DNA of 42,137 nucleotides from the IMG/VR virus record IMGVR_UViG_3300025168_014374, positions 1 to 42,137 of that record, one strand, 5' to 3'. The DNA comes from a virus. This document shows, one piece after another, positions 35,967-41,396 of the stretch; within the stretch, counting starts at the first letter, position 1; each line of letters starts with the position of its first letter. The notes beneath the pieces were generated by a model. The model worked only from the letters and a program-made list of their open reading frames with translations. It searched no databases and had not been told where the DNA came from. The position numbers and the translations under genes are program-made.

Positions 35967-36581
35967 ATGTATACACGAAAACAGATAGAAGCCGCTGTTA
36001 AAGCAAAAGGCTATGTTTGGTTTGAAGATGCTAACAATAAAGGCTACGATGTAAATATTGTAGGTGTTAGGAATTCTGAAACTAATGGAAAAGTCACAAA
36101 TGCATTTGATGACAAAATTACAATATCATACAAAGTAGATGGAGAATGGTGCTTTGAATGCTTTAATTGTACTACCGATCCAGGATCACATTGGGTTGAA
36201 AACATAATGAGAAAAGAAGGGGTCGCTGTATTAAAACCAGGCCAATATAGAAAATCTCATAAATTAAGATTACATCAAGGTAAATATCTTGCATTAGGTC
36301 AACAAAATCCTGTAACTGTTTATAGAGATAATAATCGTGATGATAATTATGATTTAGATGATAACAATACACAAACAGGAATATATGGAATTAATATTCA
36401 TAGAGCTACTGGCAGAGCTGGAAAGAAATCTACTCAAGTTGATAAATGGTCAGCAGGTTGTCAAGTAATTGCTGATAATGATGATTGGCATTGTTTCTTG
36501 GACATATGTCAACAAGCAAGAGAAACATGGGGAAATAATTTTTCATATACGTTAATTGAGAGCAAAGACCTTGTGGTATGA
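35967..36581 (+). CDS. YkuD-like (L,D-transpeptidase fold) cell-wall protein
   Basis: 204 residues. The middle of the protein has YLALGQQNPVTVYRDNNRD and then GINIHRATG (His145) followed 17 residues later by SAGC (162-165). A catalytic His followed by S/T-x-G-C is the signature of the YkuD L,D-transpeptidase fold, and phages use the fold in peptidoglycan-active proteins. An N-terminal domain of about 100 residues has cysteines (C62, C65, C68). No signal peptide is seen. It could be an endolysin or a tail-associated enzyme; the late-type promoter and strong ribosome site support high late expression. Confidence 0.6.
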   Translation: MYTRKQIEAAVKAKGYVWFEDANNKGYDVNIVGVRNSETNGKVTNAFDDKITISYKVDGEWCFECFNCTTDPGSHWVENIMRKEGVAVLKPGQYRKSHKLRLHQGKYLALGQQNPVTVYRDNNRDDNYDLDDNNTQTGIYGINIHRATGRAGKKSTQVDKWSAGCQVIADNDDWHCFLDICQQARETWGNNFSYTLIESKDLVV

Positions 36582-37486
36582 TAAAACTAAAAACCATATT
36601 ACAAGAAAGAAAGGTATTATCAGTATTTGATTTTGATGATACTATTGCTCTTACAGATTCTTGGATATATGTCATGAGGGCTGGTAGAGAAATAAAAAAA
36701 TTAGATCCGGCACAATTTGCAGTATATAATCCAAGACCAGGTGAAACATTTGATTTTAGAGATTTTGACAAAAAATTAAGAAATCCAAGATTGATAAGAC
36801 AAAATGCACAATTGTTAAAGAAACAATTAGATAAAGCCAGAAGAGCATCTAGAGGCTCAAGAAAGGTTACTATATTAACTGCAAGAAGGTTAGGACAGCC
36901 TGTAACAAGTTTTTTCAAATCAATAGGATTAGATGCATATGTAGTTCCATTAGGAAGTAGTAATCCATTAGATAAAGCAAATTGGATTGAAAAGCAAATC
37001 AAGAAAGGATATGATACAGTTTACTTTATGGACGATTCTCCTAAAAATATAAGAGCTGTAGATAACATGTTGAGGCGATATCCAAATGTAAGATCATTAA
37101 CTAAATTGATTAAGGAAGTAGAAGAAAATGTAGCTCCTAATCATGATGGTAAAGCAGCTCCATATGGGTCTGGATATGATGAGATAGATGAACTGGTAAC
37201 AGATTCTCATATTATTTGTAATAAATGTAAATGGGCATGGACTAAAGCATCTGGAGGTGATGATTTATATAATTGCCATAAATGTGGCCATGACAATACT
37301 CCAGTTAAAGAAAATTTCGCAGATGGAAAGAATCCAGGTAGAAAAGGAATATCCAAAAGAGTTGGCATCCCAAAAGGAGCTACTTTAACTCAATTAGCTA
37401 AACTAGCAAAAGCCAAAGGTGAAAAGGGCAGAATGGCTAGATGGCAATTAAACATGAGAAGAGGTAGAAAGAAGTCAAAAAAATAG
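36578..37486 (+). CDS. HAD phosphatase-like protein with zinc ribbon and packaging-type N-terminus
   Basis: 302 residues in three parts. It starts MIKLKTILQE, shared with other proteins here (see findings). A HAD domain follows: VFDFDDTIAL (nucleophile D18, acid/base D20), TILTARR (motif II Thr), and YDTVYFMDDSPKN (motif IV aspartates). Then CNKC (214-217) and CHKC (233-236) form a zinc ribbon. The last 50 residues are a basic domain with KNPGRKGISKRVGIPKG and KGRMARWQLNMRRGRKKS, which looks nucleic-acid-binding. It could be a polynucleotide or nucleotide phosphatase. The start overlaps the previous stop by ATGA. Confidence 0.82.
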   Translation: MIKLKTILQERKVLSVFDFDDTIALTDSWIYVMRAGREIKKLDPAQFAVYNPRPGETFDFRDFDKKLRNPRLIRQNAQLLKKQLDKARRASRGSRKVTILTARRLGQPVTSFFKSIGLDAYVVPLGSSNPLDKANWIEKQIKKGYDTVYFMDDSPKNIRAVDNMLRRYPNVRSLTKLIKEVEENVAPNHDGKAAPYGSGYDEIDELVTDSHIICNKCKWAWTKASGGDDLYNCHKCGHDNTPVKENFADGKNPGRKGISKRVGIPKGATLTQLAKLAKAKGEKGRMARWQLNMRRGRKKSKK

Positions 37487-39436: not shown

Positions 39437-39760
39437 ATGGCAGATCATGATAAAAAGATAAAATTAGCTGATCTAATTAAAGGTACAGGATATGAAGAAA
39501 CTCCTAAGGAAGTTAAAAAGTATTCTGATATACAATTAGCCCCGGGTAAGAAAATAGTACTACAAGCACAGACTAATGAAAATGAAAGAGGCTTAATTGT
39601 AACTTGGAGAAAGGATGGCGGATATGATGTTGCATATTGGTATGACAAGCCAACTAATATAGTACCAGCAGAATTGAAAGGCGATGGCAAATCGTTTGGA
39701 GATATTAAAAACGTATATTTAGGGTATCACCCGGAGTTAGATGATGACAAAACTTATTAA
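39437..39760 (+). CDS. Small protein of unknown function, virion-gene block
   Basis: 107 residues starting MADHDKKIKLADLIKGTGYEE; KIKLADLIKG loosely recalls the shared N-terminal peptide of its neighbours but lacks the L-x-E end. The rest is beta-rich (KKIVLQAQ, GLIVTWRKDGGYDVAYWYD). The function is unknown. Its 3' end overlaps the next gene by 20 bases. Confidence 0.68.
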   Translation: MADHDKKIKLADLIKGTGYEETPKEVKKYSDIQLAPGKKIVLQAQTNENERGLIVTWRKDGGYDVAYWYDKPTNIVPAELKGDGKSFGDIKNVYLGYHPELDDDKTY

Positions 39761-40199
39761 ATTATTAAAAGAAGCCAAAATAAAAGGTGCAGATGGTAAG
39801 GCATGTTGGGACGGTTATAGATATGCCGGAACTAAAGATGGTAAAGACAAATGTGTTAAAGTGAGTGAATCATTAGGATTAGAAATGTGGGAACACTCTC
39901 AACCAGTATTATGGCAAGAAGCAGAATACCAAGGTAGAAAAGTTAAATTAGGCAAAGTTACTAGAGGAGGCTCAAAAAAGTTTCAAGTATATGTAAAGAA
40001 TCCAAAAACAGGAAATGTTAAAAAGGTATCATTTGGAGACACAACTGGATTAACTATTAAAACAAAAGATCCAGCTAGAAGAAAATCATTTAAGGCAAGA
40101 CATAATTGTGATACAAAGAAAGATAGAACCAAGGCCGGATATTGGTCATGTAGAATGTGGGCTGGTCCAGATTCTGTAAAAAATATGTTGAAGAAGTAA
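39741..40199 (+). CDS. Basic protein with packaging-type N-terminus, unknown function
   Basis: 152 residues. The start MMTKLIKLLKEAKI carries L-K-E before Ala, a T4 prohead-protease-type site. Then GADGKACWDGYRYAGTKDGKDKCVKV, a Cys-pair module, and WQEAEYQGR as a possible second junction. The C-terminal 80 residues are strongly basic: KDPARRKSFKARHNCDTKK and AGYWSCRMW, a module I have seen in other phage and virus proteins but cannot name with certainty. The basic domain might bind packaged DNA. Two ATGs occur in tandem at 39741. Confidence 0.75.
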   Translation: MMTKLIKLLKEAKIKGADGKACWDGYRYAGTKDGKDKCVKVSESLGLEMWEHSQPVLWQEAEYQGRKVKLGKVTRGGSKKFQVYVKNPKTGNVKKVSFGDTTGLTIKTKDPARRKSFKARHNCDTKKDRTKAGYWSCRMWAGPDSVKNMLKK

Positions 40200-40200
40200 T

Positions 40201-40725
40201 ATGAAAAAATTAAAGGACTTATTAAACGAATCATTATCAGAATTTGGATTAGATACTTATAAAATTGCAGATAGTTTTACTCCGCAAGAGCTCAAAAAAT
40301 TAAAAGCAGATGGGAAGATTTCGGCTGAATCATTAAATGGCGCACTTGAATTACAAAGAGGTTGGAAACAACGTCATCCATCAATGACAGTAGGTGGAGG
40401 TAATTATAAACAAGATATGTTAAAGAAATTAAACAAAGTAAATGAAGCTGAATTCAAATTTAAATCTATATCAAAGGCCTTAGATTATATACAAGACTTA
40501 AGAGGTCAGTCCATGGACTTAGAACAAACTATGAGATCAACATTAGCTGATTTACAAGACGTTCAAATGGACATGGAACAAGAAGCTGAACCAGAAGGTG
40601 GTCCAATTGCAGATAAGTATGCAAGAGAAATGGCATATCATAAAAGGCAATATAATAAAACCAAAGCTGAATTTGAAAAGGTAATGGACGAGATAGAAAA
40701 ATTTGATGCAAATTATATGGGATAA
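40201..40725 (+). CDS. Helical protein with packaging-type N-terminus
   Basis: 174 residues. MKKLKDLLNESLSEF opens the protein and fits the shared N-terminal peptide, with L-N-E before Ser. A helical stretch KIADSFTPQELKKLKADGKISAESLNGALELQRGW follows, then KKLNKVNEAEFKFKS (a possible second cleavage junction at VNE/A, 80-83), and residues 84-170 form a long charged coiled-coil-like region. The function is unknown. It begins one base after the previous stop. A scaffold-core or internal head protein is a reasonable guess. Confidence 0.72.
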   Translation: MKKLKDLLNESLSEFGLDTYKIADSFTPQELKKLKADGKISAESLNGALELQRGWKQRHPSMTVGGGNYKQDMLKKLNKVNEAEFKFKSISKALDYIQDLRGQSMDLEQTMRSTLADLQDVQMDMEQEAEPEGGPIADKYAREMAYHKRQYNKTKAEFEKVMDEIEKFDANYMG

Positions 40726-40727
40726 TC

Positions 40728-41396
40728 ATGATTAGACTAAAAAACATATTAACAGAAGCAGTACAACAAAAGTTTGAACAAGTAAAACTTAAATTCAAGT
40801 TTAAAGATTATGCACCTGCATTTGATGAGGAAACGATGAAGACTCATTACAATAAACATTATCAAGCATATATTGATAAATTGAATACAGCTATAAAAGA
40901 AGAAAATATTCCAGTAGTAATGGGAGAAGGAATGTCTGGAATAAGAACAATATTGAATTCAGTTTCACAATATTCAGATGCAGTAAGAAATAATGGTGGA
41001 GGATTTTATAATCATACATTATTCTTTAACAATTTAAATCCGAAAGATAAAGGCAAATTAATAGATTCGCCATTAGAAGAAGCTATTAAAGAACAATATG
41101 GAACTATAGAAAAGTTTAAAGCAGAATTTAAAGAAAAGGCATTAGGACATTTTGGTTCAGGATGGTGTTGGTTATTAAATAATAAAGGACAATTACAAAT
41201 TGTTACAACATCTAATCAAGACAATCCACTTATGGACATAGTAAAGGCACCAGGAGATATACTTATAGCTTTAGATTTATGGGAACATTCATATTATTTA
41301 AAATATAAAAATGACCGTGGCAAATATATAGACGCGTTCTATAAATTGTTATGTTGGAAATCAGCTAACAAAAGATACTTAAAAGATCAATATTAA
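40728..41396 (+). CDS. Fe/Mn superoxide dismutase with packaging-type N-terminus
   Basis: 222 residues. From about residue 26 the Fe/Mn SOD fold is clear: YAPAFDEETMKTHYNKHYQ with ligand H40, GGGFYNHTLFF with H96, FGSGWCWLL, and DLWEHSYYLKYKNDRGKYID with ligands D183 and H187. All four metal ligands are present, so it should convert superoxide to peroxide and oxygen. Metal choice cannot be told. Before the fold there are about 25 extra residues starting MIRLKNILTEAVQQK, the peptide shared with neighbours, ending in L-T-E before Ala. This suggests the enzyme is packaged in the head. Confidence 0.93.
   Translation: MIRLKNILTEAVQQKFEQVKLKFKFKDYAPAFDEETMKTHYNKHYQAYIDKLNTAIKEENIPVVMGEGMSGIRTILNSVSQYSDAVRNNGGGFYNHTLFFNNLNPKDKGKLIDSPLEEAIKEQYGTIEKFKAEFKEKALGHFGSGWCWLLNNKGQLQIVTTSNQDNPLMDIVKAPGDILIALDLWEHSYYLKYKNDRGKYIDAFYKLLCWKSANKRYLKDQY

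Follow-up and report, generated by a model that had tools for sequence, protein, structure and literature searches.

The question raised by this locus was whether a virus that encodes a superoxide dismutase (SOD) also carries the enzyme in its particle. The window, meaning the whole 42,137-nucleotide stretch analysed (positions 1 to 42,137 of IMG/VR virus record IMGVR_UViG_3300025168_014374), comes from a T4-like virus of bacteria and holds an SOD gene whose N-terminal leader is like the address tag used by T4 for loading the head, and on that likeness the virus probably carries SOD in the particle and injects it with the DNA.

Superoxide dismutase gene and fold

The gene, its fold and its metal ligands were located as follows.
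40728..41396, + strand: Fe/Mn SOD gene with N-terminal leader, 222 aa (open reading frame, Pfam, NCBIfam, PDB relatives, Foldseek)
40773..41375, + strand: SOD fold, residues 16-216 (Pfam, invariant columns, SodA alignment)
40845-40847, + strand: H40, SOD metal ligand
41013-41015, + strand: H96, SOD metal ligand
41274-41276, + strand: D183, SOD metal ligand
41286-41288, + strand: H187, SOD metal ligand

In the 222-aa open reading frame (ORF), Pfam searches recognised Sod_Fe_N (E 2.9e-17) over residues 16-103 and Sod_Fe_C (E 1.3e-33) over residues 115-216. H40, H96, D183 and H187, identified as the metal ligands from known SODs, were invariant in the SOD alignment (A1). With both domains and the four ligands (H, H, D, H) in place, the ORF is a complete Fe/Mn SOD, and the earlier note's claim of an SOD fold with all metal ligands at 40728-41396 was borne out by the Pfam domains and the invariant residues. 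The top NCBIfam match was the Mn SOD family, at a score under the family cut-off. PDB sequence matches were Staphylococcus SodA and its relatives (E 6e-51), and Foldseek searches with the AlphaFold2 model (mean pLDDT 87 overall) returned Mn SODs at a target-normalised TM of ~0.9. As to the metal, the relatives, which are the sole guide, suggest the Mn type, and the protein would be expected to be enzymatically active.

N-terminal leader

The fold had been said to start near residue 26. Alignment to SodA and the Pfam match both moved its start to near residue 16; since residue 3 of Staphylococcus SodA pairs with residue 16 of the window SOD in the PDB sequence alignment, the extension amounts to ~13 residues and not 25.
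40728..40757, + strand: putative capsid-targeting leader MIRLKNILTE, residues 1-10 (T4 IPIII/gp24 layout, shuffle test, conserved Glu, low pLDDT); predicted cut after E10

A cut after E10 (LTE↓A, the arrow marking the cleavage position) would, judging from the alignment, yield a near-normal SOD N-terminus. The leader, MIRLKNILTE↓A, has Glu at position 10, an aliphatic residue at 8 and hydrophobic residues at 4 and 7. In the T4 record, IPIII begins MKTYQEFIAE↓A, gp24 begins MAKINELLRE↓S and gp23 contains FLTE↓A, the cut positions in these three being marked as is usual for T4. Like the T4-type internal proteins, the window SOD has a leader of ~10 residues that closes with a gp21-type site, Glu standing at P1. 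T4 loads internal proteins into its head by such a capsid-targeting sequence (CTS), for which the first 10 residues of IPIII are enough; positions 4 and 7 serve chiefly targeting, and 8 and 10 processing (PMC9026906; further CTS facts in PMC5694885). Foreign proteins and enzymes given the T4 CTS were packaged and then delivered into cells (PMC9026906).

A position rule was taken from IPIII (hydrophobic at 4 and 7, aliphatic at 8, Glu at 10) and applied to ORFs started at the furthest upstream ATG, so that some leaders are possibly too long. In the window, 4 of 55 ORFs (36578, 39741, 40201 and 40728) obeyed the rule against 0.29 expected from shuffled N-termini, and the shuffles gave at most three fits, never four, in 2000 trials. 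The positions themselves were drawn from T4 work, and the rule was picked after the SOD leader had been seen, so SOD is not a blind hit and the other three ORFs are. The closest large relative (G007) gave 5 of 115 ORFs against 0.70 expected, with shuffles reaching 4; in G010, where 5 ORFs obeyed the rule, 1.44 were expected and shuffles went up to 7, the rule did not stand out clearly from chance.

The leader might instead fold as an amphipathic helix that promotes oligomerisation or attaches the protein to membranes, with the head protease uninvolved. We give this hardly any credence: AlphaFold2 does place a short helix at residues 4-8, but residues 1-10 are modelled at low confidence (mean pLDDT 49), and neither the invariant Glu described below nor the resemblance to T4 cleavage sites would be accounted for.

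Other genes of the window

That SOD shares its peptide with further ORFs, as the earlier note had observed, was confirmed, the leader being carried at 36578, 39741, 40201 and 40728.
40201..40725, + strand: gene of unknown function with leader MKKLKDLLNE↓S (CTS rule)
39741..40199, + strand: phrog_7595-like gene with leader (M)MTKLIKLLKE↓A (CTS rule, G007 homolog)
36578..37486, + strand: HAD-phosphatase-like gene with leader MIKLKTILQE↓R (weak polynucleotide kinase match; CTS rule)

The phrog_7595-like gene has an additional WQE-like site ahead of its conserved domain, and its homolog in G007 begins MIRLKDLITE↓A. In the HAD-phosphatase-like gene the leader directly precedes the VFDFDDT motif, ahead of which the G007 homolog has MKLHE↓ARGKR; by its sequence this protein is possibly another packaged enzyme. 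In the HAD-phosphatase-like proteins of window 36578-37486 and L096:6963-7535 alike, the leader site directly abuts the domain (LQE↓R and LHE↓A).

Elsewhere in the window, a long gene run (10763-35680) resembles, by N-terminal sequences, glycosyltransferase and nucleotide-sugar (NAD-dependent epimerase-like) genes, and is partly common to G007 and G010. The late-promoter motif TATAAATA was counted 12 times over the window, where 17.6 copies would be expected, and none lay just upstream of the SOD gene; sigma-70-type promoters and terminators were at chance level.

Phage and bacterial superoxide dismutases

Scans of viral contigs yielded 131 non-redundant SODs, the window SOD included, which were thinned to 61 diverse sequences. 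These were picked because they resemble the window SOD and other phage SODs, and the set therefore does not stand for all phage SODs. An [ILV]xE site with its Glu 8-14 residues ahead of the fold was present in 61 of 61; P3 was I, L or V in every one and the preceding residue hydrophobic in 87%, and shuffled leaders gave the site in at most 37. A comparable site was found in one of 78 bacterial SODs, most of which begin right at the fold or have signal-peptide-like extensions; with that one exception, the leader is missing from homologs that are not virion proteins. P1' was often Met or Ile in distant phage relatives, unlike in T4.

In the SOD tree, 61 of 62 phage rows were split from the bacterial rows by a supported branch (97/96). 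The exception, L054, the one viral SOD with an odd-looking leader, falls among bacterial SODs in the tree and was dropped from the count of 61. GenBank phage records were also rejected as independent evidence: H14 (MW462191) has bacterial-type genes around it, one of them for a class C beta-lactamase, and most other GenBank SOD matches were unannotated records or carried bacterial names.

Homologs lacking the extension had been named beforehand as evidence against a packaged SOD. The expectation stood for the 61 close to moderately distant phage SODs, all of which have the extension; the very distant SOD of Vibrio phage 2.275.O (24% identity) has no such N-terminal leader. This last protein, from a cultured jumbo phage (L186:3001-3570), has MLDE↓S near its C-terminus.

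The leader may have been gained once and then kept while other residues changed, as the tree would suggest. A common origin of the phage SODs is possible, and the 61 cannot then be counted as separate events. An ordinary auxiliary SOD, made during infection and working in the infected cell only, with the leader as a neutral inherited tail, would agree with this single clade and with a complete SOD domain that needs no packaging. Yet all 61 preserve Glu together with an aliphatic residue two positions ahead of it while the rest of the leader varies, and unrelated neighbouring genes of the window have the same leader layout; we consider an auxiliary SOD of this kind unlikely.

Fused relatives

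Some phage SODs are 508-520 aa long and have a C-terminal domain (e.g. L073:9923-11464 and L012:9860-11416). In 22 aligned fused SODs (alignment A2), linker residues E240 and E250 (L073 numbering), ten residues apart, were invariant, as in the linker KE↓STTAKEFLTE↓G. The fused model fell under pLDDT 50 at residues 27-35 (leader site) and 237-251 (linker sites). The C-terminal domain had no Pfam match; it keeps E403, D436, Q449 and K451, which we take to resemble a PD-(D/Q)xK nuclease. In phage SODs of ~361 aa the added domain is N-terminal and contains the motif HEWQHE. At L019:9515-10597 and L064:6311-8446 this domain (HEWQHE or HEWVHE) is zincin-like and had no Pfam match, and the L064 protein (712 aa) bears both the N-terminal and the C-terminal additions.

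On sequence grounds, such an arrangement is what one would expect of a polyprotein that the prohead protease cleaves. It is possible, and we offer it tentatively, that a wide phage group injects SOD as a standard module of early infection, often as a polyprotein with an HExxH-type and/or PD-(D/Q)xK nuclease-like domain that is cut apart inside the head by the prohead protease at CTS-like linkers.

Head maturation genes

There was no prohead protease match in the 42 kb window, which is a fragment. A Peptidase_S77 (gp21-type) match was obtained in 11 of 44 related records, among them G007, whose gene order is largely common with that of the window (DNA polymerase 74% and SOD 60% identical) and whose protease is a PHROG head maturation protease (gp21-type). 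Its gp23-type capsid protein has QLVTE↓A shortly ahead of the conserved capsid region, approximately where T4 gp23 is cut, and capsid proteins of more distant relatives have HLINE↓A at the corresponding place. Between the protease and capsid genes of G007 lies a scaffold-like ORF with no family match, which begins MKDILKE↓A and contains eight [LIVMF]xE[ASG] sites. These motifs in the capsid and scaffold-like proteins are cleavage sites predicted by comparison. In G010, small ORFs between protease and scaffold (L100, G010:66535-67433) begin with a recurring peptide, M-K-x-S-E-L-x-x-I-I-R-E-E, which may by its recurrence be another targeting type.

Sites of this kind are present in the T4 core proteins gp22, gp67 and gp68, which gp21 degrades. 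The leader could correspondingly take SOD to the prohead core, where it would act in assembly or core filling or be lost in maturation, with no delivery to the next host. This is very improbable, given that both the SOD fold and its ligands have been conserved and that the invariant site precedes the fold, an arrangement found in those T4 internal proteins that stay in the head and are injected.

Proposed packaging and its consequences

SOD probably enters the head, has its leader removed there by the prohead protease and is injected with the DNA, a reading that is well supported by comparison. The N-terminal capsid-targeting leader would load the Mn-type SOD into a T4-like prohead, where a gp21-type protease would cut after E10, and the mature enzyme would stay among the internal proteins of the head. 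Ejected with the DNA, it would lower superoxide in the cell before phage gene expression; DNA inside the head may be protected by it as well. For this SOD we infer that it is packaged, cut, injected and of benefit to the phage, and early action in the cell would come on top of DNA protection in the particle.

The SOD of chlorovirus PBCV-1 was reported to be packaged in the virion, and infected cells contained less superoxide than cells infected by a virus lacking the gene (PMC7019647). Campylobacter jejuni sodB, katA and ahpC mutants lowered the plating efficiency of a T4-like phage (0.30 for sodB; PMC6024767), and a follow-up study gave 61% plating on the sodB mutant (PMC8540345). The PBCV-1 and sodB results make it plausible that host superoxide can limit infection. 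Both benefits, DNA protection and the blunting of an oxidative response, are proposed from precedent only.

If the packaging reading is true, a large phage group brings an antioxidant enzyme into the cell just as infection begins, which would imply that superoxide limits infection in its first minutes. The [ILV]xE rule at the leader, with Glu near position 10, would then predict injected cargo of uncultured T4-like phages.

Comparison with known systems

Bacterial MnSOD (SodA, e.g. Staphylococcus aureus 5n56) has the fold and ligands of the window SOD at ~40% identity; SodA-type enzymes are without the leader, however, and the phage SODs form a separate clade. Polyvalent phage proteins are multidomain and thought to be injected, to which the fused SOD relatives are similar (PMC5512222, which makes no mention of superoxide); the window SOD is single-domain, and several unlike domains are found only in relatives such as L064 and L073. 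PBCV-1 A245R is virus-encoded, like the window SOD, and reportedly virion-packaged, as is proposed here, but it is a Cu/Zn SOD of unrelated fold from an algal virus, whereas the window SOD is of the Fe/Mn type. Searches of the open-access literature turned up no packaged Fe/Mn SOD of a phage; the CTS mechanism is known from T4, and SOD would appear to be a new cargo for it. The T4 internal proteins IPI-III and Alt, which are CTS-targeted, gp21-processed and injected, differ in that the cargo here is a metabolic antioxidant enzyme whose packaging is read from sequence, and in that some SOD relatives are fused proteins with sites between their domains. They agree with the window SOD in leader length, layout and Glu 10, and the same kind of protease is found in relatives.
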